DNA from: Candidatus Hermodarchaeota archaeon
Lineage (GTDB): Archaea; Asgardarchaeota; Hermodarchaeia; Hermodarchaeales; Hermodarchaeaceae
Direction of reading: 5' to 3'
Length of the DNA: 57,052 nucleotides
NCBI GenBank assembly: GCA_016839365.1
Contig: JAEOUH010000033.1
Span: 1-57,052, forward strand
Shown here: piece after piece, positions 20,196 through 43,997 of the stretch
How positions within the stretch are numbered: the stretch's first letter is position 1
Layout: the number at the start of each line of letters is the position of its first letter
Made by a program: the position numbers and the translations under genes
The notes under the pieces: generated by a model
Database searches by the model: none
What the model saw: only the letters and a program-made list of their open reading frames with translations
What the model was told of the DNA's origin: nothing

Positions 20196-23051
20196 TTACT
20201 TGGCAGGTAATTTGGGTTTTATGGTCTCTGGTGAACCGCCTGGTTGCTGGGCTCGATGGCGAATGAATAATTTGAAGACCTCGACAACTAAGAATACTGA
20301 TGCAGACAGTAAAACAACCAGTGCCCAGTCCTGGAGCGTTAAGGGGACCGTGCGGAAGACTACTTGTAGAGGCGGGAAATACACAATAAGCAAGTGAAGG
20401 ACAATCGATATTCCAATTGCTACGAGAAGATATCGATTTTTCATGAATCCGACTTGGAAGAGCGAAAGATGCCCTGAACGTGAATTCAGTGCATGGACCA
20501 TTTGGGTCATGACAAGCACTGTTAATGCTAGTGTGCCTGAACGAAGAACCGCTTCATCAGGAGACAGCCCGAGTCCTGAAGGATTTGTAAGATTCAGCAT
20601 TGAAACGGTGTAGATCCAAAGTGTTGCAAAAGCTATCGTTATCCCCACTATCCATATGAGGGTCCAGACCTGTCTGGTGATGACCCCTTCTTCAGGATTG
20701 CGGGGTCCCCGTTTCATTACATCGGGTTCCATTGGGTCCATCCCAAGAGCGAGGGCTGGTAGTCCGTCTGTGACGAGGTTAATAAACAGAATTTGAATAG
20801 CCAACAAGGGAAGAGGCCATTGGAAGAAGACGGAAAGGGTAATGCTTGCAAGAAATATTACAAGAATTTCTCCTGCGTTACAAGAGAGTAGATAGGAGAC
20901 GAATTTGCGAGTATTATCGCCAATTCCACGCCCTTCCTCAATGGCATTGACGATGGATGCATAATTGTCATCCGTTAGAATCATGTCGGAGGCTTCTTTT
21001 GCCACATCTGTACCAGTGACCCCCATGGCGATGCCGATATCTGCATATTTGAGGGCGGGAGCATCGTTGACTCCATCTCCCGTCATGGCGGTGATGTGCC
21101 CTCGGGATTTCAGTGCTTGAACAATCCGCAGCTTATGTTCTGGTGAAACTCGGGCATAAACCCGGACTTGTGGAGCAGCATCAGTAAGGTCTTCATCAGA
21201 AAGGGCATCTAGGGCATTGCCTGTTAAGACAGCATCGTCTTCCTCAAACATCCCGAGTTCATTGGCAATCGCTACCGCAGTATATTGATTATCTCCCGTA
21301 ATCATGACTGATTTAATTCCTGCACCCTTAGCAATTTTTATGGAATCAAAGACTTCTGGCCGGGGTGGATCCATCATTCCCGCCAACCCAACAAAGATTA
21401 GATCAAACTCTACTCCTTCGGGAGAAATGTCGCTGAGGTCTTCGGGGCACACACGGTAAGCCATCGCAAGAACCCGTAAGGCCTTGTTTGCCATTTTATC
21501 ATTATTACTTAGAATCTCTGCTCGTTGCTCTTTGGAGAGTGGCTGAATGCCATTTCCTGTGAAAATATGTGTGCTCTGGTTAAGCACGACCTCTGGTGCT
21601 CCTTTCACATAAGCGATGGTTTCATTTTCTGGGGTGTCGTTCAAGGTTGACATCCGTTTACGTTCTGGATCGAAGGGAAGCTCGGCGATACGAGGATAGT
21701 CGTCATAGAGCTGATCGGAGTATCCTGCTTTTTGTGCCGCGACCACAAGGGCACCCTCCGTTGGATCTCCAATGATTTCCCATCCATCGTTATGCTGGCG
21801 AACAATTGCATTGCTACACAGAGAACCGATTCTAAGCAGCAAAGCGAGTTGTTCATTTTTCAGAGGCTCAATCTTTTCGTTCTCAAAAAAGAATTCACCT
21901 TTGGGTGAATAACCGGCTCCAGTGACAGACACCGAATAGCCTGGTACGAACAGCTCTCGGACAGTCATTTCATCCTTTGTGAGGGTTCCGGTTTTATCTG
22001 AACAAATAATATCAGCAGAGCCTAAAGTTTCCACTGCGGGGAGTCGGCGAATTATAGCGTTCCGTTTCACCATCCGTTGGACCCCCAAGGCTAGCGTAAT
22101 CGTAACAACAGCCGGTAATCCTTCAGGAATCGCGGCTACTGCCAAAGCGACGGCAATCACGAACAAGTCAAGAAAGGTTGAAAAGTCTAGATTCGCCATC
22201 AGCCAAGCTACTACAACTTGGACGGTGAGTACAACCATACAGATGATGAGAATGGCAATGCCCAGTTGTCTCCCCAATCGCCGCATTCGTTTCTGTTGCG
22301 GGGTTTCTTTTTCCCCGACTTCTGAAATGAACCCGGCAATACGGCCAATTTCCGTATTCATGCCGGTATTAGTTACCACCGCTAGCCCCCGACCCGATGT
22401 TATTGCAGTGCTGGCACGGACCATGTTGGCTTGATCGGCTAAGGGTATGTTCCGATCGAAGATTTTGTTGGCCACCTTCTTAGTTGGCATTGATTCACCG
22501 GTGAGCGAAGCTTCATCAGTGTAAATGTTATGTGATTCGATAAGACGTGCATCAGCAGGAAGTCGATCCCCCATCTCCAAACGTAGTATATCGCCTGGGA
22601 CCACTTCTGTAGCGGGTATATTGATCGGTTCCCCATCACGCAGAACATGGGCTTGTGGTGCTGCCATCTTCTGTAGGGCTTCAATGGATTTCTCAGCACG
22701 ATATTCTTGGGTGAAGCCCAAGATAGCGTTGATTACCACAATGATCATGATGACGATGGCGTCTATGGGTGGTTCGTTGTGGCCTGGGATGGTGAGATTC
22801 GCGTATACATTGACAACCAATGAGATGACTGCTGCGAAAATGAGAATAATAACAAGGGTTTCTTTGAATTGTGAGAGAAACATGGATAAGGGGCCAGGCC
22901 CTTTGATCTCTTCAAGGGTGTTGGGACCATATTCAGTCAATCGCTTTTGTGCTTCTTTCTGGCTTAGCCCTTCTTCTGTTACCTCGAGTTGTTTCATGAC
23001 TGTAGCAGCATCTTGGGTGTGAGGAAGAAGCTTTTCTGTCGTCAAGGACAC
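20196..23051 (-). CDS. Cation-transporting P-type ATPase, Ca2+ (P2) type
   Basis: A 951-residue P2-type ATPase. The actuator loop is TGES (184-187), M4 has PEGLP (309-313), the phosphorylation site is Asp352 in DKTGTLT, and the hinge is [13 protein letters not shown]5 has SCNAGEI and M6 [14 protein letters not shown], the Ca2+ site pattern of SERCA/PMCA-like pumps. It would expel Ca2+ (possibly Mn2+) using ATP. The N-terminus carries the usual cation-ATPase domain ([18 protein letters not shown]). The start is GTG 23049-23051. It is downstream of atpE on the same strand with 114 bp between; whether they share a transcript is unclear. Confidence 0.94.
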
Positions 23052-23165: not shown

Positions 23166-23819
23166 TTATTCACGGGGCTTTTCAGTTTTCACTTCGATTG
23201 GGAAGAGGATTTTGGCAATGGCGTTGCGGTATTTGACGTCAACTTGGGTTAGGAGCGTTTCAACTCGGTAATCGACGGTTATGTTGCCCTCCTTGTTTTG
23301 AACCATGACACCGCCAATCGCATCAATGGCCTGTTTTCCAACAGAAACCTTGGTAGTTTGCCCAGCTTGCTTTGAGATTGCTGTTCCGAGACCGGTGATT
23401 TTTAAAATAATGGGTTGATCCTCCTTGCGGACAAGGACGACTATATCCCCACCACCTATTTGGATTCCTGCGTTGGTGATGAGATTCTTGAGAAAAGTTT
23501 TGTATTGAGCTGACTCCCTTTCTTTCTCAAACTGCTTCCGAGCCTGTTGGAAAGCTTCATTGATCATAGCCGCTTTTGCATTCATGACCCGCATATGGGC
23601 ATCGTTTCGAGCCTTCCCGAGGATCCGGTCACCAGTTCCTTGAGCCATTTGTTTTCGACGGGCAGCCCAACCAGCTAGATTTGATTGAGCGTTCTCCAAG
23701 GCTTCTTCAGTGAGTTGCCGGGCGGCGACTTCAGCGTCCTCAACAATCTTTTTAGCTTGCGCTTTGGCTTCATCAATGATTGCCTTTTCAATTTGATCTG
23801 CAGGAGAAAACGCACTCAT
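23166..23819 (-). CDS. atpE: A/V-type ATP synthase subunit E
   Basis: A 217-residue peripheral-stalk subunit. The N-terminal ~100 residues are a long charged helix (IEKAIIDEAKAQAKKIVEDAE onward) that forms the right-handed coiled coil with subunit H. The C-terminal globular head has the expected strands (GGDIVVLVRKED, AIGGVMVQNKEGNITVDYRVETLL). It joins the A3B3 headpiece to the membrane part. ATG overlaps the end of the upstream H gene by 4 bases (translational coupling). This H-E pair is separated from the I-K and C genes, unlike the usual single archaeal operon. Confidence 0.92.
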   Translation of the reverse strand: MSAFSPADQIEKAIIDEAKAQAKKIVEDAEVAARQLTEEALENAQSNLAGWAARRKQMAQGTGDRILGKARNDAHMRVMNAKAAMINEAFQQARKQFEKERESAQYKTFLKNLITNAGIQIGGGDIVVLVRKEDQPIILKITGLGTAISKQAGQTTKVSVGKQAIDAIGGVMVQNKEGNITVDYRVETLLTQVDVKYRNAIAKILFPIEVKTEKPRE

Positions 23820-24142
23820 TTTGCTGCACCCCCAAACGAATAGATTGCAGAAACAATAAAGTCGACCGTTTTCTTAATATGCTTCTTTGCTTGCTCTTCA
23901 ATTGCAGCAGCTTCATTGTCCGCCTTGGCGAGTATCGTCTTCGCCTGAGTCTGGGCTTTCTTCTCGATTCCCTGCTGAAGGGCGGTAATTTCTTCGGTGA
24001 GCTGGCTCCGAACATTTGGTTCGGTTTCCCGAATCTTACGCTCAGCGTCTCGTTTGATTTCCTCAGCTTTACTTTGAGCTTTTTCGATTATTTTCGCCGC
24101 TTCAGCTTCAGCTTTTTGTACACCGTTTAAGACCTCGCTCAT
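23816..24142 (-). CDS. atpH: A/V-type ATP synthase subunit H (G-type stalk helix)
   Basis: About 108 residues, almost entirely helical, with heptad-like Ala/Glu/Lys repeats (AEAEAAKIIEKAQSKAEEI, and later NEAAAIEEQAKKHI) and a short C-terminal hydrophobic end. This is the pattern of archaeal subunit H / eukaryotic G, which pairs with E in the peripheral stalk. The ATG at 24140-24142 was preferred over TTG 24154 because GGTG lies 6-10 bases upstream. It precedes and overlaps atpE. Length fits AhaH (about 100-110). Confidence 0.88.
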   Translation of the reverse strand: MSEVLNGVQKAEAEAAKIIEKAQSKAEEIKRDAERKIRETEPNVRSQLTEEITALQQGIEKKAQTQAKTILAKADNEAAAIEEQAKKHIKKTVDFIVSAIYSFGGAAK

Positions 24143-24323
24143 TCTCAACACCAAAGCATCATTCAGTTTTGTTATTAGTCGCTTTTCAACGATGACCTTT
24201 CTTAATAAGCCTTATCATCAGTTAAAATTCCTAAAACCGGATAATCTTCCGAAACCTTAAGAATGGGATAATTATTATCGAACCCTTGTTGAGCTGTATT
24301 GATAACCGATTTTGGTGAGAACA

Positions 24324-24554
24324 ATGAGTGATGAACCCCCAAGCACAATGGGTAAAGCATTTCGATATACTACAATTGGATGCGAGATTCTTGTTTTTGC
24401 GTTGGTTGGATGGATTGTAGGACCGTACATCTTTGGTCAAAATGGGGATATTATCGGGGCATTGATTGGAGCCCTGATTGGGACATTCATGATGTTTTGT
24501 ACACTATTCTATCTTGCGGGCATGTTCGGGAGAAGAAAAGAAACCAAGGAATAA
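24324..24554 (+). CDS. Small two-TM protein resembling AtpZ/AtpI of ATP synthase operons
   Basis: A 76-residue protein with two helices (IGCEILVFALVGWIVGPYIF and GALIGALIGTFMMFCTLFYL) separated by a short loop QNGDIIG, and a basic tail. The Gly-spaced second helix and overall size recall AtpZ/AtpI, small membrane proteins of bacterial F-type operons linked to rotor assembly or Mg2+/Ca2+ uptake. ATG 24324 has GGTGAG 4-5 bases upstream. It lies 40 bp before the gene for ATP synthase subunit C and is divergent from the H-E genes. The resemblance is by pattern only. Confidence 0.6.
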   Translation: MSDEPPSTMGKAFRYTTIGCEILVFALVGWIVGPYIFGQNGDIIGALIGALIGTFMMFCTLFYLAGMFGRRKETKE

Positions 24555-24594: not shown

Positions 24595-25644
24595 ATGTCA
24601 GTTGCGCGATATAGTTTCATCAATGCTAAAATTCGGTCTATGAAGGCAGATATCCTTACATCCGAACAGTGGGATGCACTTATTGGTGCTCGTGATATGT
24701 TCAGTGCTCTGCGGATTCTTGATTCTACTAGTTATGCTCAACTTGTTCAGGATATGGGTGAGGCAACTTCACCTATAGAAATTGAACGGGTCCTACAATC
24801 AGACTTCAACAAGGTGTTAATTGAAATTAAAAATGATATTCCCACTGCAAATCAGACCTTAATGACATGGATTACCAGGAAATTCCAAAAAGAGGTAGTC
24901 AAGAGCCTCCTCCGACTATATACTTCTGGATCAAATCAGGCTACCGCAGAAAGACTTCTCATTCCCCTAGAACCGTTTAGCACTAGTCGCCTAATGACTC
25001 TTCTCGAGGCGAAGGATTTACGGTCAATGGTTTCTGAAATCCCTGATCAATTCTTTCAACATGAAATAGAAAAAACATTACCTAAATATGAAGAAACAGG
25101 AAACCTGTTCATCGTTGAACACACACTAGATTCAATGGTATTTCAGAATCTGTTTCGAGAGGTCCAACAGCTTGAAGAACAAGATCGGGAAATCACTGCA
25201 AGACTTGTTGGCACCGAAATCGATTTGCTGAATCTTATGATTACTCTCCGCTCACATTTTCTCGGCCTTTCTTCAACTGAAACAGCAGAATTCCTGTTAA
25301 GGACTCCTTACCGATTGCCCTTGGATTTATGCCAAAGAGCCCTGCTGTCAAGAAACTTCGAAGAAAGAATTCGGATTCTCCAATCCAGTTATTATAAGGA
25401 TCTCATTTCTCGGAGCTGGGAAGCCTATGAACTAGATCAGGGTCTTGGAGCCTTCGAACACAATGCTCATATACTGATCCGAACGGATAGCGAAGAAGCC
25501 CTAATTGGGTATCCCTTTCACTTTGGCATTGTGCTAGGGTTTCTTAACTTAAAATGGTATGAAACGATTAACCTAAAAGCAGTCATGAACGGGAAAGCTG
25601 ACCAGCTTGACTCAAATATAATACGACGAGCCCTAATCCTTTAG
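24595..25644 (+). CDS. atpC: A/V-type ATP synthase subunit C (V-type d homologue)
   Basis: A 349-residue soluble, mostly helical subunit that caps the membrane rotor ring and couples the central stalk to it. Characteristic patterns are the N-terminal ARYSFINAKIRSMKADIL, the middle TARLVGTEIDLLNLMITLRS, and the C-terminal GYPFHFGIVLGFLNLKWYETINLKAVMNGKAD. Length matches the family (about 340-360). It follows the small AtpZ-like gene on the plus strand and is isolated from subunits I and K by six other genes. Confidence 0.9.
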   Translation: MSVARYSFINAKIRSMKADILTSEQWDALIGARDMFSALRILDSTSYAQLVQDMGEATSPIEIERVLQSDFNKVLIEIKNDIPTANQTLMTWITRKFQKEVVKSLLRLYTSGSNQATAERLLIPLEPFSTSRLMTLLEAKDLRSMVSEIPDQFFQHEIEKTLPKYEETGNLFIVEHTLDSMVFQNLFREVQQLEEQDREITARLVGTEIDLLNLMITLRSHFLGLSSTETAEFLLRTPYRLPLDLCQRALLSRNFEERIRILQSSYYKDLISRSWEAYELDQGLGAFEHNAHILIRTDSEEALIGYPFHFGIVLGFLNLKWYETINLKAVMNGKADQLDSNIIRRALIL

Positions 25645-30345: not shown

Positions 30346-33300
30346 TCAAATCCGCATGATCAACATAAATGACACAAGCAGGGCATAAATGGCGAGCGCT
30401 TCTGCCAGCACCACAGGTACCATTGACTTACTAAAGATTCCTGGCTTCTTCGCAATCGCGCCAATCAACCCCGCTCCAGCCCAACCAATCGCAATACCAG
30501 CCATCAATGCCCCTAACCCGACCGTTGCCGCAGCCGCCACTCCCACAAACGCCCCGATATCCGTAATCGCATCCAACCGCATTACCAACATAAACGCTGT
30601 CAACAAACCATAGATGCCTAACGCTTCGGCTAACACTACGGCGACCAAGCCTTTACTAAAAGACTCCGGCGATGACCGGATTCCCGTGCACAACGCCTCA
30701 CCCGAATACCCGATACCCAAGCCGCCTCCAATACCTGCGACCCCAATCGCCAATCCAGCACCAATGGCCAGCCACCCCTGGGCTGCAAAAGTGGCTGAAT
30801 CAATACGCATCACCACCATGAAGCCGACCAATAATCCGTAAATCCCCAACGCTTCGGCAAGGACAACGGCAACAAGCCCTTTACTGAAGGCACTCGACTC
30901 CACGGATATAGTCCGAGCCAATGCAGCGCCGGCATGGGCAATACCAAAACCGGCCCCAAAACAGGCAAAGCCTACTGCCAAAGCTGTACCTAATGCCATT
31001 AGACCTTGGGTGAGAAGTGTTACCGCATCAATCCGCATTATCAACATGAAACTCATTAACAAGCCATAAATCCCAAGCGCCTCCGCCAAGACCACACTGA
31101 CCAAGCCCTTGGAAAATACCTCAGGAGCCGTGACTAGGCTCACGCAGAGTGCAGCACCAGCTAAAGCAATGCCAATACCGCCTCCGATGGCCGCAAGTCC
31201 GATTGCTGCCCCAGCACCGATTCCGACCAATCCCTGCCCGATAGCCGTTACAGATTCCATCCTCATAAGCAGCATAAAACTTGATAGCAGTCCATAGATT
31301 CCAAGGGCCTCCGCCAACACAACAGCAACCAAACCTTTGCTGAAAATCTCTGGACGATGGACTAAGCCTTCCGATAAAGAGGAGCCACTTTTCGCGATAC
31401 CTATACCTGCACCGATAGCAGCTAAGCCGATGCTCAAAGCTGCACCAGCAGCGAGAAATCCCGGTGTGATATCGGTGACTGTGTCAATACGCATCAAGAG
31501 CATAAAACTAGCCAATAATCCGTAAATCCCGAGGGCTTCGGCTAGCACGACACTGACAAGCCCTTTACTGAAGACCTCAGGACGTGCAGCAAGGCTTCGT
31601 GATAAAGCCGCCCCAGCAAGGGCAATACCGAATCCAGCCCCAATAGCTGCCAACCCAATGGCTAGACCAGCAGATATGGCTACAATACTCTGACCAATCT
31701 GAGTCACGGAGTCGATTCGCATCAGTAACATGAAGCTTGTGAGTAATCCATAGATGCCCAACGCTTCCGCTAAAACAACACTCACCAAACCTTTACTAAA
31801 CGATTCGGGAGCGTATACGATAGTTCGTGACATGCTGGCCCCTGCACGAGCGATGCCAATACCGGCACCAAAAGCGGCAAAACCGATTGCCATACCCGCG
31901 CCAATACCAACAAGACCCTGCGCAATTCCAACTGGGTCGACACTGATCGTGTCGATTCGCATCAAAAGCATGAAACCAGCAAGCAACCCATAGATTGCTA
32001 ATGCTTCAGCAAGGACCACTCCTATGAGCCCCTTGCTGAAGATTTCTGGACGTTCAGCCAGGCTTTCTGAAAGGGCACTTCCAGCAGCAGCAATACCAAT
32101 CCCTGCACCTATACCTGCTACGCCTACAGCGACCGCCGCAGCCAAACCCATGAAGCCTTGTCCTAAGCCAGTAATTGTATCAATCCGCATAAGCAGCATA
32201 AAACTAGCCAAGAGCCCATAGATTCCGAGGGCCTCCGCCAACACGACACTGACAAGTCCCTTGCTGAAAGCTTCAGGTGCAACAACCAAAGTCCGATTTA
32301 TTGCCGAACCCGCTTGTGCGATACCATATCCTGCACCGATTGCGGCAAGTCCTATCGCTAATGCTGCCGCTAACCCCACCATGCCCTGACCAATTATGGT
32401 AACTGTTTCGATGCGCATCAGCAACATGAAACTCGCGAGCAGCCCATAGATACCAAGCGCTTCAGCTAACACGACACTGACAAGCCCTTTACTGAAGACC
32501 TCAGGTCGATCAACAAGACTGCGTGATAAGGACGCGCCTGCAGCAGCAATACCGATACCAGCACCAAATGCAGCTAATCCCACGCCCAGGGCCGCAGCAA
32601 CGGCAATCAACCCTTGGGCATCGACAGCGACAGTATCAATCCGCATCAGGAGCATGAAACTTGCCAAGAGCCCATAGATGCCCAACGCTTCCGCTAAAAC
32701 AACACTCACCAAACCTTTACTAAACGATTCAGGAGCTTCCACCAGAGCCTTACTCAGTGCGCCACCGGCAGCCGCGATGCCGATACCTGCACCTAGACCT
32801 GCAATACCCACGGCAAGTCCTGCACCAATCCCCACGAGCCCCTGAGTAACAAGGGTTGATGTTTCAATGCGCATCAGCAACATGAAACTCGCGAGCAGCC
32901 CATAGATACCAAGCGCTTCAGCTAACACGACACTGACAAGCCCTTTACTGAAGACCTCTGGTCGCTTCGTTAGGCTCTCAGACAAAGAGGCTCCACTCTT
33001 TGCAATACCAATACCTGCGCCTAAGGCGGCTAGACCTACTCCTAATGCAGCTGCAATCGCTATTAATCCTTGACCAAGAAATGTCACGGATTCGATACGC
33101 ATCAAAAGCATGAAACTAGCCAGAAGCCCGTAAATTCCCAAAGCTTCGGCTAACACGACGCCGACAAGTCCCTTACTAAAGGATTCAGGGGCAATAACCA
33201 GGGCCTTATTGAGCGCAGCGCCAGTTTGGGAGATGCCAATTCCAGCACCTAGTGCAGCGAGGCCAATCCCGAGTCCAGCCGCAATTGCTACCAATCCCTG

Positions 33301-33786
33301 CCCAATGTTAGTGGCGGACTCGATACGCATCAGGAGCATAAAACTGGTCAATAACCCATAGATCGCTAAAGCCTCTGCGAGCACCACGGACACTAGTGCT
33401 TTGCTAAAGGTTTGGGGTGCAGCTGCGGTACTGGTTGCCATGGCGCTTCCTGCTTTCGCTATGCCGATGCCAGCACCTATGCAGGAGAGGCCAATTGCTA
33501 GTCCTGCACCGAGGGCAACCAGTCCTTGTGCCTCATTGGTGATGGCGCCTATCCGCATCAGGAGCATGAAACTTGCGAGCAGACCATAGATCGCTAATGC
33601 TTCCGCGAGAACAACGGTGATCATGCTCTTGCTGAAGGATTCGGGTTTCTCGGCGACGGCACTCACCATGGCGCTTCCGCTGAATCCGATGCCAATTGCG
33701 GCGCCAGCTGCTCCAAGCCCTGCCGCAAGCACAGCACCGAATGCTGTGAAGACTTGTCCAATGTTAAGGAGGACTGCTTGAAGCAT
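30346..33786 (-). CDS. atpK: Giant A/V-type ATP synthase proteolipid (subunit K/c) with 15 fused hairpins
   Basis: A single 1146-residue membrane protein built from 15 tandem copies of a ~76-residue two-helix hairpin (30 TM helices). Each copy has a Gly/Ala-rich first helix (such as GLAALGAGIGIAKSG), a loop (RPEVFSKG or APESFSKG) and a second helix with VVLAEALGIYGLL. The ion-binding Glu is kept in all 15: near 62, 138, 214, 290, 366, 442, 518, 594, 674, 750, 826, 902, 978, 1054 and 1129. Ordinary archaeal K has one or two hairpins; Methanopyrus is known for 13. The protein may form the whole rotor ring. AEALGIYGLL resembles the H+-type site of eukaryotic c subunits. A 4-residue insertion follows hairpin 8. 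It is encoded 15 bp downstream of subunit I. Confidence 0.97.
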   Translation of the reverse strand: MLQAVLLNIGQVFTAFGAVLAAGLGAAGAAIGIGFSGSAMVSAVAEKPESFSKSMITVVLAEALAIYGLLASFMLLMRIGAITNEAQGLVALGAGLAIGLSCIGAGIGIAKAGSAMATSTAAAPQTFSKALVSVVLAEALAIYGLLTSFMLLMRIESATNIGQGLVAIAAGLGIGLAALGAGIGISQTGAALNKALVIAPESFSKGLVGVVLAEALGIYGLLASFMLLMRIESVTFLGQGLIAIAAALGVGLAALGAGIGIAKSGASLSESLTKRPEVFSKGLVSVVLAEALGIYGLLASFMLLMRIETSTLVTQGLVGIGAGLAVGIAGLGAGIGIAAAGGALSKALVEAPESFSKGLVSVVLAEALGIYGLLASFMLLMRIDTVAVDAQGLIAVAAALGVGLAAFGAGIGIAAAGASLSRSLVDRPEVFSKGLVSVVLAEALGIYGLLASFMLLMRIETVTIIGQGMVGLAAALAIGLAAIGAGYGIAQAGSAINRTLVVAPEAFSKGLVSVVLAEALGIYGLLASFMLLMRIDTITGLGQGFMGLAAAVAVGVAGIGAGIGIAAAGSALSESLAERPEIFSKGLIGVVLAEALAIYGLLAGFMLLMRIDTISVDPVGIAQGLVGIGAGMAIGFAAFGAGIGIARAGASMSRTIVYAPESFSKGLVSVVLAEALGIYGLLTSFMLLMRIDSVTQIGQSIVAISAGLAIGLAAIGAGFGIALAGAALSRSLAARPEVFSKGLVSVVLAEALGIYGLLASFMLLMRIDTVTDITPGFLAAGAALSIGLAAIGAGIGIAKSGSSLSEGLVHRPEIFSKGLVAVVLAEALGIYGLLSSFMLLMRMESVTAIGQGLVGIGAGAAIGLAAIGGGIGIALAGAALCVSLVTAPEVFSKGLVSVVLAEALGIYGLLMSFMLIMRIDAVTLLTQGLMALGTALAVGFACFGAGFGIAHAGAALARTISVESSAFSKGLVAVVLAEALGIYGLLVGFMVVMRIDSATFAAQGWLAIGAGLAIGVAGIGGGLGIGYSGEALCTGIRSSPESFSKGLVAVVLAEALGIYGLLTAFMLVMRLDAITDIGAFVGVAAAATVGLGALMAGIAIGWAGAGLIGAIAKKPGIFSKSMVPVVLAEALAIYALLVSFMLIMRI
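31748..31806 (-). repeat. 59-bp exact repeat inside atpK (copy A of pair 2)
   Basis: The segment is identical over 59 bases to 32672-32730, offset 924 bases, equal to four hairpin units plus the 12 bases of the 4-residue insertion. Exact silent-site identity between distant units suggests recent gene conversion or unequal recombination. Confidence 0.85.
32411..32502 (-). repeat. 92-bp exact repeat inside atpK (copy A of pair 1)
   Basis: The segment is identical over 92 bases to 32867-32958, offset 456 bases (exactly two 228-base units). Other units encoding the same residues differ at many silent sites, so this identity is recent. Confidence 0.88.
32672..32730 (-). repeat. 59-bp exact repeat inside atpK (copy B of pair 2)
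   Basis: Partner of 31748-31806. Confidence 0.85.
32867..32958 (-). repeat. 92-bp exact repeat inside atpK (copy B of pair 1)
   Basis: Partner of 32411-32502. Confidence 0.88.
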
Positions 33787-33801: not shown

Positions 33802-35745
33802 TTATGTGGATGTGATGATCCAGTTTTCCCGAAACCGGAGTGGTTGATAGTCATAACCGGTGCCGGCATAGAATTTCAAGAACGCTTCCACCCAGTGGAG
33901 ACGTAGGGTGTGAATGAATGAGAGCAACCCCTCCATGAGGAGGACGAAGACGGTGCCAAGGATGAGCATGGCGACGAACATGACCAATGTCATGATGCCC
34001 CCTGTAGAGAGTTGGTAGATGATTGTATTGATTTCTGCTGCCACGATGCCGCCAAGGAAGAGGAAGGTTTTAGCGAAGCCGGCGTGGGCCATGTTGAGGG
34101 CGAGAATCCGGGAGTAGCTGATGGTGTTACTGATGCTTTCAATGAGGTGTTCAAGGCCTTCCATGAAGCCGTCCATGAAGCCGAAGAAAACCATCCCACC
34201 TACGAACATTATGATGGCGGGTAAGATGAGGAATAAGACCATTTCCACGATTGGCCACATCATGAAATTGATGCCAAATTGGAAGATCATGTAGGCAAGG
34301 CCCCAAAGGAAGAAGAGCCAGATGATAGGGCCGAAAATGGCGTGCTTCAAATCACGGTGTCGAAGTTTGTTGATGGCGGAGAAGCCGATGGCGATGCTGA
34401 GGTGAATAAATCCAATCATGATACTCAGGACGAATAATATCCATGTGGGGCTGGCGACAGTGGCGGGTAGGTGCTCTGGCATTTCAAACGCACTGAACCA
34501 GATGGGGGTGGTATGACCGTGTGCAGGGTCGAGAATCCAGGCATTATAGGGGCTGAGTGGATCGAGGAACCAATTGACGCCTCCATCGAAGTCAAAGAAC
34601 TGGAAAAGGGCGAGCAGACCGTTTTTCATGCCTTCACCAAAGGGCGAGTACTTTAGCGCTTGATACACATAAACCCCGTTGAGTTGTAGTCCCGTGATGT
34701 CAATCCCCATGAACTCGCCGTATAAGACACCAAAAAAGATCGATGCTAAGGCGATAACCATAATCATCCCAGAACCCTGAATGAAGTAATTAACCATCTC
34801 ACCCGCGTCGACCTTACGGCGTTTCGCAATGAAACCGAGGGATGCAAACAGGAAGAGTAAAATCCCGTGACCAATGTCGCCGAACATGAGCCCAAATATG
34901 ATTGGGAAGCCGAGGGCCATGAACCAAACGGGATCGATTTCGGTGTGGTTCGGGAACCCAAAGGCGTTGGTGAGGTTTTGGAAGGAGCGGAGCCAGCTGG
35001 GGTTGGTCTGTTTGGTGGGTGGAGCAGTGGATTCTTCGGGTTCAATAGCGCCCTCGAGTGGTCCGGTGTCGCCTGGGTAATGACCGTGCTCGGGTTTATC
35101 GGTGTGTTCGAGAATGGTAAGGGCTATGCTTAGAGCCTTTTGTTCTTCAATCGTTTTAGTGAATTTCTTAACCTTGTTGGTTGGAATCCAGCCATACATG
35201 ATGTAGGTTCGTTTGGTTTTGCCAAAGAGCGTCTTGGTTTCTTCGAGTTTGTGTTCGCGTAGAACGAGTTCTTCCGACCCTAAAAGATCGAAACGATGTT
35301 CCTCACCGAAGGCTTTGATTTCCTTTTTTACTGCCTTTGCTGCTTTTTTATCCTCTTTGGCTTCTGCAGTTGTAAGTCTTTGAGTAAGGTCGTTATAATC
35401 ATCTTCGATGGCTTTGAGGGTTATTTCCATTTTTTGGAAATGAGTCTCATCGGGAATAGCAGGAACTTCTAATGGATCTTTGACTTTGCCTCCGCGATTA
35501 ATGTTCATTTCAGCGATGAGACTTGTAATACGTGATTGAAGATTGGAGAGGTAGTAATACCGTTCGGAAGCTTCGACAGGGGTAAGAGATTTGAGATGCT
35601 TCTTTTGGCTTTCCTTCACATCTGCGAAATGGACAACCCCAGTACTTGCAATGAAGCGTAGTGCTGCATCCATTTCGGTGTCAATGACAACAGCCGTAAG
35701 GCAACTCATTTTCGCTGGTAACATCGGAGCCAATTGAAACACCAT
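33802..35745 (-). CDS. atpI: A/V-type ATP synthase subunit I (V-type a homologue)
   Basis: A 647-residue stator subunit. The N-terminal ~300 residues are soluble, with a long coiled coil (about 95-135, EMEITLKAIEDDYNDL-type) and FGKTKRTYIMYGWIPTNKVKKF. The C-terminal half has about seven or eight helices with MFGDIGHGILLFLF and EGLEHLIESISNTISYSRILALNMAHAG. The latter carries the essential Arg of the proton half-channel (in SYSRILAL). It pairs with the K ring to conduct ions. ATG 35743-35745. It lies directly upstream of atpK, a common archaeal order (I-K), but the next genes are unrelated. Confidence 0.95.
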   Translation of the reverse strand: MVFQLAPMLPAKMSCLTAVVIDTEMDAALRFIASTGVVHFADVKESQKKHLKSLTPVEASERYYYLSNLQSRITSLIAEMNINRGGKVKDPLEVPAIPDETHFQKMEITLKAIEDDYNDLTQRLTTAEAKEDKKAAKAVKKEIKAFGEEHRFDLLGSEELVLREHKLEETKTLFGKTKRTYIMYGWIPTNKVKKFTKTIEEQKALSIALTILEHTDKPEHGHYPGDTGPLEGAIEPEESTAPPTKQTNPSWLRSFQNLTNAFGFPNHTEIDPVWFMALGFPIIFGLMFGDIGHGILLFLFASLGFIAKRRKVDAGEMVNYFIQGSGMIMVIALASIFFGVLYGEFMGIDITGLQLNGVYVYQALKYSPFGEGMKNGLLALFQFFDFDGGVNWFLDPLSPYNAWILDPAHGHTTPIWFSAFEMPEHLPATVASPTWILFVLSIMIGFIHLSIAIGFSAINKLRHRDLKHAIFGPIIWLFFLWGLAYMIFQFGINFMMWPIVEMVLFLILPAIIMFVGGMVFFGFMDGFMEGLEHLIESISNTISYSRILALNMAHAGFAKTFLFLGGIVAAEINTIIYQLSTGGIMTLVMFVAMLILGTVFVLLMEGLLSFIHTLRLHWVEAFLKFYAGTGYDYQPLRFRENWIITST

Positions 35746-37541: not shown

Positions 37542-39179
37542 TCAGGGAACAGGAAATAGTGGTCCTAAGGCCCCATATGCAGCTTGTGTAGCGAAGTCGA
37601 GGAATAAGCCGGGGAAGAGACCAAGAATGATGATGAAGAGCATGAGGACGCCAATGACGAAGAGTAGTGACCAGTGTGGGCGTTTCGCGGTGGCAGCTTC
37701 AGGACTGGGTTCGGCGAACATCAGAATTTGGATCATTCGGAGGTAATAGACAACGCTGAAGGCGCTCATCAGGACCATGATGATTGTTGCTAGATAGGTT
37801 TGGGCGACGATGGAGCCCCAGATGATGTAGAACTTACTGTAAAATCCGACCAGGGGGGGGACACCAGCGAGGGAGAGAGCAGCGATGGTGAAACAGAACA
37901 TCACAAAGGGCATTCGGCGACCCACACCTTGGAGTTTGTCAAAGTCTCGAGTGCCCATTTGGTGTAAGAAGATGCCGGCGATCAAGAAGAGCATCCCCTT
38001 GGCCAGCATATGGGCGAAAATGTGGGCTAAGCTTCCAGTCACTGAATAGAGTAGAGCGTTTTCAATGGTGGTCGAAGTGGGAAGCCAGAGAGCAAGGGGC
38101 ATCATGGCAATGCTAAACCCGAAGATAATGAAGCCAACATTGACGATGGTGGAGTACGCCAACAACCGTTTCAGGTCTTTTTGTGTCAGGGCCATTAGGT
38201 TTCCATAAATCATAGTGAAGAGAGCGAACCAACTTAGGACAGCGCCGAAGTAGGTGAATGTGTAGGGGTCGAAGAAGAGGACGAGGAGGCGGATGAGGGC
38301 ATAGGCGCCAGTCATGATGACGACACCACTAAGCATGGCGCTGATGCCACTGGGAGCAGCGGGATGGGCGTCGGGAAGCCATGTGGAGAGTGGTGCGATG
38401 GCAGCTTTGACACCAAAGCCGATAACAATGCCGACAATAGTGAAGATGAGCAGACCATAAATCCCCGCTGTTGCTGGTGGTGAACTTGCTAGCAGGGCGT
38501 TGATGGCGGCTCCGATTTCGTAAAGGTTGAGTGTGCCGGTCAGTCCGTAGAGAATAGACATGGTGAATAGGATTAGGGTTGACCCAACGGCGCTGAGGAG
38601 CAAGTATTTGATACCCGCTTCAAGAGGTTCATCTTCATCGCGGCGGAAGGCAACCAAGACATAGCTGCTGATGGACATGGTTTCCCAGAGGATGAACAAG
38701 GTGAAGAAGTCCCCAGCAAACACGACACCAATCATTCCACCAATGAGTGTCAGTAAAAGTGCATAATACAGGGGAATCCGGGTATCGTGCTCCATGTACT
38801 TGATGGAGTAAAGGGATACGAAGAATGCCAGGAAGAGGAAGATGACTGCCATGTAGACTGAGAGGATGTCGATACGGAAGAAGGTGGCACCTGTTGCGGC
38901 GTCAAAAGCACCTGGGGGCCAATACCAGATATCGATTGGTGTCCAGCTATTATGGAAAAGTTGCCAATACAGACCATAAGTTGATCCCCAAGGTGTCACA
39001 ATTTGGAAAGGCCACAATACCATAACCAGGCTCAAGATGAAGAAAACCGCTGCTAGAATGCCAAGTATTGTCTTTCGTCGATCTTGCCAGAATCGCCCTA
39101 GCAAGGCAATGATGAGTGCTCCGATGAAAGGGAGCCAGAGAGGTGTGAGTTGAATCCATTCTAAAGGTCCGATTGCCAT
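37542..39179 (-). CDS. nuoN: Complex-I-type membrane subunit N (antiporter-like)
   Basis: A 545-residue protein with about 14 helices. The helix-5 Glu is in FTLFILWETMSISSYVLVAF, and the conserved Lys/His region is KAAIAPLSTWLPDAHPAAPSGISAMLSGVVI. Together with L and M it forms a proton channel of the membrane arm in Nuo/Fpo complexes. It is the last gene of the operon J1-J2-K-L-M-N, 16 bp after M. ATG 39177-39179 has GGAGG upstream. It could equally be called FpoN or a hydrogenase antiporter subunit. Confidence 0.93.
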   Translation of the reverse strand: MAIGPLEWIQLTPLWLPFIGALIIALLGRFWQDRRKTILGILAAVFFILSLVMVLWPFQIVTPWGSTYGLYWQLFHNSWTPIDIWYWPPGAFDAATGATFFRIDILSVYMAVIFLFLAFFVSLYSIKYMEHDTRIPLYYALLLTLIGGMIGVVFAGDFFTLFILWETMSISSYVLVAFRRDEDEPLEAGIKYLLLSAVGSTLILFTMSILYGLTGTLNLYEIGAAINALLASSPPATAGIYGLLIFTIVGIVIGFGVKAAIAPLSTWLPDAHPAAPSGISAMLSGVVIMTGAYALIRLLVLFFDPYTFTYFGAVLSWFALFTMIYGNLMALTQKDLKRLLAYSTIVNVGFIIFGFSIAMMPLALWLPTSTTIENALLYSVTGSLAHIFAHMLAKGMLFLIAGIFLHQMGTRDFDKLQGVGRRMPFVMFCFTIAALSLAGVPPLVGFYSKFYIIWGSIVAQTYLATIIMVLMSAFSVVYYLRMIQILMFAEPSPEAATAKRPHWSLLFVIGVLMLFIIILGLFPGLFLDFATQAAYGALGPLFPVP

Positions 39180-39195
39180 CTTTTTTCAGCCTCCA

Positions 39196-40773
39196 TTATG
39201 GGGTTAGGGGGAACCCTGTTGGGTTAAGTGGGAAAGCAAAGGGGAACTGCTGTGTGAGTCCAATCAAGATCGGGTTGAGCACAATGAAGGGCAAAACACC
39301 GATGATTATGATGAGGGCAGCAAGTAGAAGCATGGGGAGTCGCATGGTCCATGGACTCTCTTCGATTTTTTCCATTTCAGTGGGCGTAGGTCCAAAGAAC
39401 ACACGTTTAATGAACCAGAGGACATAAGCGGCGGTGACAGCTGATCCTGCTACAGCAAAGATCACCAACCAGATCGTATAAGCAAAGGCAGCTCCAGCAA
39501 AGATGAAGAATTCGGAGAAGAACCCAGCCAATGGTGGAGTGCCCGCGATGCTAAGGGCAGCGATTAATGCAATGGTTGCGGTCCAGGGCATCTTCTTGGC
39601 TAGACCACCCATGGCGTTAATGTCACGTCCGCGCTCATGGCCTACTTTGACGATGAGGACGCCGGCGACCATAAACAAGAGACCTTTACCTAGGGCATGA
39701 GTGAAGATATGGAAGGTTGCTCCTGACACGCCAAGGAGCACTGCGGTTCCAAGTCCGAAGAAGATGTAACCCATCTGGGATATCGATGAATAGGCAAAGA
39801 GCCGTTTAGTATCCTTTTGGGCTAGCGCCATGGCTCCGCCATAAAACATCGTTATGAGCCCAAAGATCATAATAATTGGTATGAAGGTTGCGAAAGCAGG
39901 TAACAGATAACCCATCAGGATTCGGACAATCGCGTATGCGGCTGTGGCAATCATGACTCCGGATAAGATGGCACTGATAGGAGTAGGTGCTTCAGCGTGT
40001 GCGTCTGGAAGCCATGAGTGAATGGGAAAGATAGCCATTTTCACAGCAAACCCAATAGTGAGAAGAATAACCAAAATCTTTGTAATTTCAAAGAACGGTT
40101 GGGTAAACAAGGTGGGTATGCCACCGGGCCAGATCCAGTGCAAGTCGATTGTTGGGGTTAGCCCTGCTTGCGAGAAGTCATAAAGGTTGAGGGTCGCAAC
40201 TCCATTGTAGGCTGAAAGGGCATACATACCAGCGATTCCGACAATGATGAGAACGGCACCAACATGGGTATAGATGAAGTATTTGAGGGCGATATTGGTG
40301 GATTGGGGTTTTGTTCCCCATTCGGCGATGAGGAAGTAGCTGGGGATGAGCATGAGCTCCCAGAAGATATAGAACTGAAAGAGGTTGGTAGCAATGACAA
40401 CACCAAAGATCCCGGCGTTGTATAGAAGGAGCAAGGCGTAGTATTTCCCTTTACCATGTTCATCCTTCATGTAGGCCAGCGAATAAATAGTGGCCGCCAT
40501 CGTGAGAATGATGACTATTCCCGCAACGGTGACACTGAGTCCATCCAAGAGCCAGCCAAAGTGGAAGGGTCCCCAAATAAACTCTTCGAAATAGACGCCG
40601 CCGTTGATGAGATATTCATTCCATGCTAGGATATAGGTGACCATGCTGGCGAACATTATCAGGATCGCGAAGAAACCAGCAGAGCGTCCGTTTCGCCGAC
40701 CAATAATGTATGCGATGATCGAGCCGATTAATATGAGCAACATAGTAACTGTTAGCCAAGGTAAGAGCGCCAT
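39196..40773 (-). CDS. nuoM: Complex-I-type membrane subunit M (antiporter-like)
   Basis: A 525-residue protein of about 14 helices. Conserved Glu in FYIFWELMLIPSYFLIAEWG and Lys in AVKMAIFPIHSWLPDAHAEAPTPISAILSGVM mark the proton path; TKRLFAYSSISQMGYIFFG is the broken-helix region. It belongs to the operon between L and N, 11 bp after L. ATG 40771-40773 has GGTGA 6 bases upstream. Homologous to MrpD/A-type antiporter subunits, but the gene order and length favour NuoM/FpoM. Confidence 0.94.
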   Translation of the reverse strand: MALLPWLTVTMLLILIGSIIAYIIGRRNGRSAGFFAILIMFASMVTYILAWNEYLINGGVYFEEFIWGPFHFGWLLDGLSVTVAGIVIILTMAATIYSLAYMKDEHGKGKYYALLLLYNAGIFGVVIATNLFQFYIFWELMLIPSYFLIAEWGTKPQSTNIALKYFIYTHVGAVLIIVGIAGMYALSAYNGVATLNLYDFSQAGLTPTIDLHWIWPGGIPTLFTQPFFEITKILVILLTIGFAVKMAIFPIHSWLPDAHAEAPTPISAILSGVMIATAAYAIVRILMGYLLPAFATFIPIIMIFGLITMFYGGAMALAQKDTKRLFAYSSISQMGYIFFGLGTAVLLGVSGATFHIFTHALGKGLLFMVAGVLIVKVGHERGRDINAMGGLAKKMPWTATIALIAALSIAGTPPLAGFFSEFFIFAGAAFAYTIWLVIFAVAGSAVTAAYVLWFIKRVFFGPTPTEMEKIEESPWTMRLPMLLLAALIIIIGVLPFIVLNPILIGLTQQFPFAFPLNPTGFPLTP

Positions 40774-40784
40774 TTTGTTTCACC

Positions 40785-42959
40785 TCATGGTAAGAAGGGA
40801 ATGGGTATCATCAGCACGCCTCCTAGAAACTGAAACAGCAACAGGAGGATGATGAATAAGAGGGCACCGATGAGCAGCAGAATCATGTTCCAACTGTGGA
40901 CACCGGTTTGAATTCGACGCCACCGACGGCTCAACCCAACGGAGCCGTAAGCGATTGCATAATTTGCACGGTCAATACCTTTGATTTCAACCTTATTGAA
41001 CAGACCTCGGGCAAACCAGAGCCCGCCATTGACGAAGATCTTGTACATCAGGGCATTCCAATACCAACGACGGTCCAAGAACTTATAGAGCCCACCAAGG
41101 GCACCGCGGCCAACGAACTCGGGACTCCAACTTCGACGGATATAGAACATGTATCCAAGAAGGCCACCTAGCAGGATAACCCCTAAGGAGATGAGAAAGG
41201 TGGGAGAGATGCCATAGACAGGATTGGTGAAGACATGTTCGAAGAAGTAAATGTAGTCTTCAATTATTGTGCCAAAGTGGGGGTAGCCAGGAATCAGGTT
41301 AAATTGGTCGTGCCAGAAAGTGAAGAAGTACCGTTCAAACAGGGGTTGTAAGAATCCAATCACCAGGGTAATCCCGGCAAGAATGGCCAGGGGAATCCAC
41401 ATGACCCCGGGGGGATCGTGAGCGGGATGACCTTCAGATTCCAGGGACTTAACATGGGCACTGGGTTCACCATAGAAGGTAAGCCCAATCATTCGGAATG
41501 AATAGAAAATCGTCATTATGGCAGTGATTGCACCAAAGGCGAGGAAGATCCAGCCCCAGATACTGCCCATGGCGCCAAGTTCCCACGCTGAGGCGAAGAT
41601 GAGTTCCTTACTCCAGAATGCTCCAAAGGGTGGAACGCCACTAAGTGAGAGAACACCGATGAACATTACTATGAATGTAATAGGCATTAATTTTCGGAGC
41701 CCACCCATATCGGTCAAATATTTGGAGTGGACAGCATGGAGAACGGCACCTGCAGAGAGGAAGAGCAGGGCTTTGAAGACAGCGTGGGTGGCTAAATGAA
41801 AGACACCAGCGGTATAGCCGATAATTCCGTCAGCTGTGAAAGCGAAAATGCCTAGGGCCATGAACATGTAACCTAACTGGCTGATGGTGCTGAATGCCAA
41901 GACCTTCTTCAGTTCCTTCGATGTCAGGGCCATCGTTGCAGCCATAAACGATGTAAAGGTTCCGATGATGGCGATGATGAGGAAGAAGTTATTGAGCACA
42001 AAGGCAGTAATGGTCCCTGAAGTGGCAATAAATGCTGAAACCAGTATAGGTGCCATTCGCGCCACTAAGTAGACTCCAGCTTTGACCATGGCCGCGGCAT
42101 GGATAAGGGCAGATACGGTGGTGGGTCCGGCCATGGCTTCAGGGAGCCAGAACTGAAGTGGGAACTGGGCACTTTTTCCAATGGGTCCCAGGAAGAAGAG
42201 TAGAAATACACCCATAAGAAGTAGCCCGTTTAGGATTGCAGCCATATTATACAGCCAGGTGAAATCAGTCTGAAGCACCTGATAGTTTAGGGTCGGATTT
42301 CCTGCTGAAACTGTGAAGAATGCAATGAAAACAATCGAAATCAGGAGCCCAACGTCTCCAACTCGGGTAACGATGAAAGCCTTCATTCCACTGTGAGAGT
42401 TAAGTTTTCCTTCTGTCACTTCACCGAGTTGATCGTCCTTTACCATATTCTTTCGGTTATACCAGAAACCAATCAGGGCATATGAACAGAGACCGACGAT
42501 TTCCCAGCCAATGAATGTTACAAAGAGGGAGTTAGCCATCACCAACAAGGTCATTCCGCCAATGAACAATTGCATCAGGAACCAGTAACGGGTAAGGGAT
42601 TCATCTCCCTTCATGTAGCCTAGGCTGTAGACGAGAATGAGAAAGCCAATACCCGTTGCGATACAGGCCATGAAGACTGAGAGTGGATCGACAAGCACCC
42701 CAAACTGAATTGAGAAGTTAATGACTGGAACCGTAATCCATTCAATAGAGTGCTCATACCAGTAGAGTGGGGGGGTGCCGATCCAAGCAGCGCCACTCCA
42801 TATGAATGGCACCATGGCAAGGGCCATGATCATGCCTAATGCTCCGAAAATAACAGCTCCAAAGTCTCGGAGCCGCGGGTGTATTTTTGCGAAAATTGGT
42901 GTCAAGAGAGCCCCAATGAGTGGAAATAAGAAGCAAAGCCAAGCAATATAAGGAAGCAT
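40785..42959 (-). CDS. nuoL: Complex-I-type membrane subunit L (antiporter-like, long form)
   Basis: A 724-residue protein with about 16 helices and a long C-terminal part, as in NuoL/FpoL with the lateral helix (the stretch after AILAGITLVIGFLQPLF). Conserved Glu in FVTFIGWEIVGLCSYALIGFWY and the Lys/His region in FPLQFWLPEAMAGPTTVSALIHAAAMVKAGVY are present. It is the distal proton-pumping subunit. GGGTGA is upstream of ATG 42957-42959. The length exceeds typical MrpA-like Ech subunits, supporting the complex-I-type assignment. Confidence 0.94.
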   Translation of the reverse strand: MLPYIAWLCFLFPLIGALLTPIFAKIHPRLRDFGAVIFGALGMIMALAMVPFIWSGAAWIGTPPLYWYEHSIEWITVPVINFSIQFGVLVDPLSVFMACIATGIGFLILVYSLGYMKGDESLTRYWFLMQLFIGGMTLLVMANSLFVTFIGWEIVGLCSYALIGFWYNRKNMVKDDQLGEVTEGKLNSHSGMKAFIVTRVGDVGLLISIVFIAFFTVSAGNPTLNYQVLQTDFTWLYNMAAILNGLLLMGVFLLFFLGPIGKSAQFPLQFWLPEAMAGPTTVSALIHAAAMVKAGVYLVARMAPILVSAFIATSGTITAFVLNNFFLIIAIIGTFTSFMAATMALTSKELKKVLAFSTISQLGYMFMALGIFAFTADGIIGYTAGVFHLATHAVFKALLFLSAGAVLHAVHSKYLTDMGGLRKLMPITFIVMFIGVLSLSGVPPFGAFWSKELIFASAWELGAMGSIWGWIFLAFGAITAIMTIFYSFRMIGLTFYGEPSAHVKSLESEGHPAHDPPGVMWIPLAILAGITLVIGFLQPLFERYFFTFWHDQFNLIPGYPHFGTIIEDYIYFFEHVFTNPVYGISPTFLISLGVILLGGLLGYMFYIRRSWSPEFVGRGALGGLYKFLDRRWYWNALMYKIFVNGGLWFARGLFNKVEIKGIDRANYAIAYGSVGLSRRWRRIQTGVHSWNMILLLIGALLFIILLLLFQFLGGVLMIPIPFLP

Positions 42960-42978
42960 TTTTTCTTTTCACCCCAAG

Positions 42979-43314
42979 TTAATGGCGCAGTTTGTTGAGT
43001 TTTCGGATATCGAGGGTTCCGAATTTATTGTATGCTCGAATGAAAAAGGCTAAGGCAATTGCTATGACTCCACCGCCAATACAGATACTGACGATGACAA
43101 TCGCTTGAGCCATTAAGTCAATGTAAAAGCCCGACCAAGCCGTCGCAAATGTGATGAAGTTCAAATGGGCTCCGTCGAGTAGTAATTCCAACGCGATGAG
43201 GAATTTAATCATGTTCCGTTTCGTTGCCATCCCGTAGATACCCACAGCGTACAGGAAGACCGCCAAGATAAGAAATGCTTGCAATGGGACGCCTAAAATA
43301 TCAAGATATGTCAT
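42979..43314 (-). CDS. nuoK: Complex-I-type membrane subunit K
   Basis: A 111-residue protein with three helices (ILAVFLYAVGIYGMATKRN, then IKFLIALELLLDGAHLNFITFA with the functional Glu, then IVIVSICIGGGVIAIALAFFI). The Glu-containing second helix is the signature of NuoK/MrpC. The ATG is 6 bases after the J2 stop and its SD (GGAG) overlaps that stop, so it is translationally coupled. Confidence 0.92.
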   Translation of the reverse strand: MTYLDILGVPLQAFLILAVFLYAVGIYGMATKRNMIKFLIALELLLDGAHLNFITFATAWSGFYIDLMAQAIVIVSICIGGGVIAIALAFFIRAYNKFGTLDIRKLNKLRH

Positions 43315-43320
43315 CGTATC

Positions 43321-43632
43321 TTACTCCTTTTCCTCTGGTTTCGTCGATTCTTTCTTTACCTCGTAGAAGAACGCAGAGCTAGCTAGAGCAGCTGCCAGCA
43401 AAAACACACCAAGTAGGACCATATCGATCCCACGGAAATGCCAGAGCATATTCCCGAGCAACTGAATCATTGCATAAACATTATCAGGAGATGGGACAAA
43501 TCGGTGGACCCAAGATGCGGGGTTAACCACTACACTGGGATCCAAATAGAACCCAGTGGCCATTGCAATCACCCAGGCAGCAATAACGCCAAATAGGAAA
43601 GTGAGGATACAGCCAGCAACTTTGATTCTCAT
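43321..43632 (-). CDS. C-terminal half of split NuoJ/FpoJ-type subunit (J2)
   Basis: A 103-residue membrane protein with two helices (VAGCILTFLFGVIAAWVIAMA and DMVLLGVFLLAAALASSAFF) and a charged tail ending in KPEEKE. Its position between J1 and K, its start overlapping J1 by 4 bases, and the last helix equivalent to the end of NuoJ support its being the second half of J. Sequence alone is too short and variable to prove this. Confidence 0.6.
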   Translation of the reverse strand: MRIKVAGCILTFLFGVIAAWVIAMATGFYLDPSVVVNPASWVHRFVPSPDNVYAMIQLLGNMLWHFRGIDMVLLGVFLLAAALASSAFFYEVKKESTKPEEKE

Positions 43633-43997
43633 CGGACGTCCTCCTCTTCAATCTCCCCAGTGCCACGACGGGTTGTTAATGAAATCCCAGAAATAATAAT
43701 CACGGTAACAGCCCCAGCATAAATCGCAAGTTGAAAGAAGGCGACCCAGATGGCGAAGAGTAGCAGGTAAATGAGAGCTAAGGTTATGGCTGAGCCGGCG
43801 AGGTAGAGGGCGGCATGTAGGAGATCTTTATCTTCAATGGCGAGTATAGCGAAGACAGCGGTCATGACAATGAGGATATAGATGGTCATAACTCGGAGTC
43901 CTGGGATGAACTGGTCGAGTGCCACAAGTAAAATCATAATGATGCTGAGAAGTATGAGGCCTAGTAGGCCAACGACCGCGGTACGTGATATTGACAT
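43629..43997 (-). CDS. nuoJ: N-terminal half of split NuoJ/FpoJ-type subunit (J1)
   Basis: A 122-residue membrane protein with three to four helices. The segment DLLHAALYLAGSAITLALIYLLLFAIWVAFFQLAIYAGAVTVIII-like pattern (LHAALYL, QLAIYAGAVTV) is the conserved core of NuoJ/FpoJ. The protein ends after this core (TRRGTGEIEEEDVR), where full-length NuoJ continues for two more helices, here apparently encoded by the next gene. Methanosarcina also has J as two genes. It is first gene of the J1-J2-K-L-M-N operon. Confidence 0.85.
   Translation of the reverse strand: MSISRTAVVGLLGLILLSIIMILLVALDQFIPGLRVMTIYILIVMTAVFAILAIEDKDLLHAALYLAGSAITLALIYLLLFAIWVAFFQLAIYAGAVTVIIISGISLTTRRGTGEIEEEDVR

Follow-up and report, generated by a model that had tools for sequence, protein, structure and literature searches.

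A subunit K of fifteen hairpins in a Hermodarchaeota archaeon and its candidate role as a single-chain proton rotor

A single gene of a Candidatus Hermodarchaeota archaeon encodes fifteen hairpins of the rotor proteolipid (subunit K) of an A/V-type rotary ATPase, and this one chain quite probably makes up a complete proton rotor of 15 sites working at 5 H+ per ATP, with the closure of the ring, its specificity for protons, the ratio and its activity all predicted. The gene lies in a 57,052-nucleotide stretch of DNA, contig JAEOUH010000033.1, which is referred to here as the window. An orthologue of equal hairpin number occurs on a separately assembled contig, and close relatives carry 8 hairpins in one gene or 7 and 3 hairpins in two.

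The subunit K gene and its genomic context

The K gene is a single open frame of 1146 aa with an ATG start and a calculated product mass of ~112 kDa (Table 1). The initial annotation had described a c/K rotor proteolipid with 15 motif copies at 76-residue spacing, a Glu in each copy providing 15 potential ion sites, and 30 transmembrane helices in one chain. The motif VVLAEAL[GA]IY[GA]LL does occur 15 times in the frame, at residues 58, 134, 210, 286, 362, 438, 514, 590, 670, 746, 822, 898, 974, 1050 and 1125, the Glu of the second helix (the conserved carboxylate) is present in every hairpin (15/15), and the predicted AlphaFold model, of low confidence (pLDDT 62, pTM 0.51), contains 30 long helices. 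The motifs are 76 residues apart in 12 of the 14 intervals, the exceptions being 80 (hairpins 8-9) and 75 (hairpins 14-15). Cutting the protein at the conserved motif gave 15 units of a common form, with a first helix rich in GxGxGI, a loop that is mostly xxPExFSK and a second helix with VVLAEAL(G/A)IY, joined by short linkers of ~8-10 residues that vary from unit to unit. Fifteen stretches matched Pfam PF00137 (ATP-synt_C; E 1e-224), and the protein scores far above the cut-offs of several NCBIfam 'V-type ATP synthase subunit K' models. A 15-fold pattern of this kind cannot plausibly be put down to chance. A two-hairpin unit of duplication was considered and rejected, with no even/odd pattern in overall similarity (permutation p ~0.6-0.8).

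K is encoded alongside other A/V-ATPase subunits, with I, E, C and a weakly matched G/H in the window and A, B and D elsewhere in the genome; the gene for subunit I (a) ends 15 bp upstream of K. A search of the genome (93 contigs, ~84% complete) returned one match each for A and B, both on contig C54, one for D and one for I, while no PF00137 domain was found outside K in this ~84% complete genome, all of its ATP-synt_C domains being the 15 in K. The single A, B, D and I set and the lack of further PF00137 domains point to one rotary ATPase with K as its sole visible rotor gene, and at 84% completeness another c gene could be absent from the assembly. Domain matches, gene context and the lack of another c/K gene thus support K as the rotor proteolipid of an A/V-type ATPase with 15 sites in one chain, and the initial identification is borne out.

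Table 1. Rotary ATPase genes of the window and selected hairpins of subunit K
Feature	Position	Strand	Basis
Subunit K, rotor proteolipid, 15 two-helix hairpins	30346..33786	-	15 PF00137 stretches, NCBIfam subunit K models, split into units
Hairpin 1, N-terminal type, Glu62	33544..33786	-	Groups with hairpin 1 of 8- and 7-hairpin relatives
Hairpin 15 and stop codon, C-terminal type, Glu1129	30346..30567	-	Groups with the last hairpin of relatives
Hairpin 9, 80-residue unit, sole lengthened linker, after hairpin 8	31939..32178	-	Also lengthened in the orthologue (81)
Subunit I (a), stator partner of the rotor	33802..35745	-	PF01496, E 1.8e-48
Probable peripheral-stalk G/H-type subunit	23816..24154	-	V-ATPase_G_2, E 9.9e-05, below curated cut-off
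Subunit E, peripheral stalk	23166..23819	-	vATP-synt_E, E 1.7e-26
Subunit C (d, AC39), central rotor coupling	24595..25644	+	vATP-synt_AC39, E 1.9e-50

Directly beyond CysS from the I-K pair, in the window (37542-43997, -) and likewise in relatives, complex I-like membrane subunits are encoded in a row (three antiporter-type, one chain 4L-type and one chain 6-type), which places proton-pumping and ATP-synthesis genes together. Adjoining subunit C is an 80-aa glycine-zipper protein (24312-24554, +) with a weak match, below cut-off, to an ATP-synthase-associated family, and a 951-aa P-type cation ATPase (20196-23051, -) stands beside the subunit E and G/H genes.

Predicted ion type and the proposed rotor

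Positions of the ion site were numbered by alignment to the Na+-type c subunit of Ilyobacter, a reference whose whole sequence was confirmed against PDB 1yce, and Na+ and H+ sites were distinguished according to PMC2359735. K lacks the Na+-type features, namely a helix-1 Gln and a Ser/Thr following the Glu: in all 65 hairpins examined in the family, including 15/15 of the window K, Gln32 is replaced by Ile, Ser66 by Ala and Thr67 by Leu. The Glu and the Tyr are retained in all 65, and K thereby displays the H+-type combination of a Glu that is kept and Na+ ligands that are absent. With the Na+ ligands replaced and Glu and Tyr kept, the sites of K are predicted from the sequence to be proton-type. 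The closest solved sequences to K are the proton-type c subunits of eukaryotic V-ATPases, and two-hairpin stretches of the predicted K model superpose on eukaryotic V-ATPase c with a target-normalised TM of ~0.9 and a best rmsd of 1.3 Å.

In the reading favored here, the K gene would supply the whole membrane rotor of the cellular A/V-type rotary ATPase as one polypeptide. Fifteen two-helix hairpins would stand side by side, the second helix of each bearing one proton-binding Glu, and hairpin 15 would close on hairpin 1 to give a 15-site ring that turns against subunit I; a full turn would then move 15 protons per three ATP, or 5 H+ per ATP. What a monomeric rotor needs in hairpins is present in K, with 15 hairpins, 15 Glu and a size within that of known rings. 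Known ring sizes are 8-15 and 17, and the rings of yeast and E. hirae comprise 20 hairpins (PMC5376962). That 15 falls inside the known sizes, and that the 30 hairpins of two chains would exceed even the 20-hairpin rings, favors one chain per ring. One chain closing a 15-site ring at 5 ions per ATP is the most economical reading.

Hairpin number among relatives and alternative readings

A 15-hairpin K orthologue is encoded on the separately assembled contig JABXGV010000028.1 (C282) of MAG H02S_Hermod_124 (G006), with 87% aa identity to the window K over the full length. A hairpin tree groups each hairpin with the equally numbered hairpin of the other protein in 14 of the 15 cases, the exception being hairpin 10, whose pairing the tree does not resolve. 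Between the two genes dN is 0.10 and synonymous sites are saturated (proportion 0.77), with a dN per hairpin of 0.03-0.17 that indicates purifying selection on every hairpin; conservation is highest in the two end hairpins, at 94% and 96% identity. The hairpin-for-hairpin correspondence and the saturated synonymous sites together suggest that the 15-hairpin state has been kept over a long divergence. The neighboring genes are 66-78% identical compared to the 87% of K, a difference that either strong constraint or a transfer of K between lineages could explain. Both 15-hairpin proteins have an Arg ahead of the Pro of the cytoplasmic loop in hairpins 4, 6, 8 and 10, the pattern behind the two-hairpin unit of duplication considered above.

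The same MAG carries a second CysS-I-K version, on contig C318 (JABXGV010000060.1), with an 8-hairpin K. In the tree of subunit I, C282 falls inside the genus of the window as sister of genome G001 and C318 falls with the other genus, and the placement of the two versions in two genera makes it probable that the MAG is a mixed bin. Eight hairpins in one gene are also found in genome G003 (YT2_032), mid-contig in a contig of 232 kb, while genomes G005 and G007 have a 7-hairpin K gene and, directly after it, a second gene encoding 3 hairpins. The K of G001 is interrupted, its two parts lying at the ends of contigs that have 348 bp in common (97.4% identity), and it has 8 hairpins if the shared 348 bp is one stretch, otherwise at least 10. 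The 8-hairpin (G003, C318) and 7+3 (G005, G007) genes share with the window K the family, the CysS-I-K context and the terminal hairpin types, but have fewer hairpins per chain. The comparison of hairpin number among homologues that the initial annotation had proposed thus yields 8, 7+3 and 15 among close relatives; this variation, the predicted proton type and the independent 15-hairpin orthologue were all absent from it. In a search of 228 Asgard genomes (E <= 1e-22), fusions of more than two hairpins occurred only in the Hermodarchaeota family that holds the window K, and the other frames examined had one or two hairpins.

The relatives also suggest how the long chain arose. Hairpins 1, 2, 13, 14 and 15 of the window K correspond to hairpins 1, 2, 6, 7 and 8 of the 8-hairpin proteins, and as eight hairpins are found in both genera, this is more likely to be the ancestral number. 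The 15-hairpin K probably grew from an 8-hairpin ancestor through duplication of about seven internal hairpins, with the terminal ones kept. A simple end-to-end duplication of the 8-hairpin gene (8+7), hinted at by the lengthened linker after hairpin 8, is not supported because hairpins 8 and 9 are not of the terminal type.

The 3-hairpin protein of G005 and G007 has features of its own. It is 539 aa long (L036 6519-8138, -, and L037 1839-3458, -, in each case directly after the 7-hairpin K gene) and consists of a signal-peptide-like start, ~290 residues rich in N-x-S/T sites and then three c hairpins. The ~290-residue N-terminal region, an extracellular-type domain, had no Pfam match, and the AlphaFold prediction of the G005 chain with this domain was uninformative (pLDDT 36). 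Such a domain would be an unusual feature of a rotor subunit.

The main rival to a ring made from one chain is that chain length differs from ring size in this Hermodarchaeota family. K would then be one component of a rotor that includes other c-type chains or a second copy of K, with a ring size other than 15, which is judged unlikely. The relatives with 8 hairpins, or with 7 plus 3 in two genes, indicate that rings of mixed composition or of several chains occur, or could occur, in the family, and the 8-hairpin proteins suggest that the size of the ring may differ from the length of the chain; two such chains might form a 16-site ring, near 15, of which the 15-hairpin form would be a fused near-equivalent. 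However, the terminal hairpin types occur only at the ends of K, which argues that it is not a plain end-to-end fusion of two 8-hairpin chains, no further PF00137 domain was found beside K in the ~84% complete genome, and a second copy of K would take the ring above any known size.

A single K chain per ring would also be wrong if the product were cut after synthesis into one- or two-hairpin units that form an ordinary ring. The linkers would be exposed outside the membrane, judging from the topology of V-type c, but they are short and variable and contain by eye no evident shared cleavage motif, and the order and identity of the hairpins are conserved across lineages, which would hardly matter once the chain was cut; processing of this kind is improbable. 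Still harder to credit is a K that has lost its rotor function and serves another membrane role, since although its size is far beyond the usual range of subunit K, all Glu and Tyr sites are kept, purifying selection is strong and the gene adjoins that of subunit I in a genome with no other rotor gene found. Lastly, an assembly artefact, the failing that the initial annotation had foreseen for its count of 15 repeats, is rejected and almost certainly not the explanation: both 15-hairpin records come from metagenome assemblies and the contigs of G001 break inside the K gene, but the repeat copies are only ~60-75% identical as DNA and exact internal repeats reach 92 bp at most, making collapse or expansion unlikely, and the independent orthologue matches one-to-one, so that the count is upheld.

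Comparison with known rotors and implications

Many-hairpin K chains are already known as a kind. The K of Methanopyrus kandleri has 13 fused hairpins, as the initial annotation correctly stated, is Na+-type and has been put forward as a monomeric rotor (Lolkema and Boekema 2003, described in PMC2359735). Compared by description rather than sequence, both proteins are single chains of many complete hairpins with an ion-binding Glu in each, but the methanogen has 13 where the Asgard window K has 15, and the full set of Na+ ligands, kept in all hairpins of M. kandleri though not needed for a single-chain rotor, is replaced in 15/15 hairpins of the window K. The c, c' and c'' subunits of eukaryotic V-ATPases share with K an AExLGxYG motif lacking the Na+ ligands and a matching two-hairpin fold, and differ in having two hairpins per chain, one active Glu for every two hairpins and a ring of several chains (20 hairpins in yeast). 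A precedent for a ring fused into one polypeptide comes from the Bacillus PS3 F-ATP synthase, in which ten c hairpins engineered into a single chain were active in both ATP synthesis and hydrolysis (Mitome 2004; PMC8809890); that c10 is artificial and F-type, with ten identical hairpins and designed linkers, unlike K.

The window K is the longest such fusion that could be found in this analysis, and no report of a 15-hairpin K, of a giant fusion of H+-type or of an Asgard multi-hairpin K was found in the open-access literature. What is new lies in the length, the proton-type sites predicted and, above all, the 8, 7+3 and 15 hairpins among close relatives. Ring size sets the ions paid per ATP, and in these archaea a single gene may fix that number covalently. 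It seems somewhat more credible than not that the window K is a natural, single-chain, proton-type 15-site rotor of an Asgard archaeon in a family where, even within a genus, rotor size is stepped (8, 7+3=10, 15) and a single gene sets the H+/ATP ratio and is where it changes. The relatives would provide a natural series for the evolution of ring size and its bioenergetic effect. Further, in a ring made of a single chain each of the 15 sites is free to diverge, which allows the rotor to become asymmetric. No known archaea are more closely related to eukaryotes than the Asgard archaea, and the K hairpins resemble eukaryotic V-ATPase c at the ion site.

In another Asgard family (L041-L043; genomes G021, G028 and G035), a 2-hairpin c gene precedes a separate gene of one hairpin whose motif, AEA(L/I)AIYG, is similar, and this 2+1 arrangement may stand midway between single and fused rotors.
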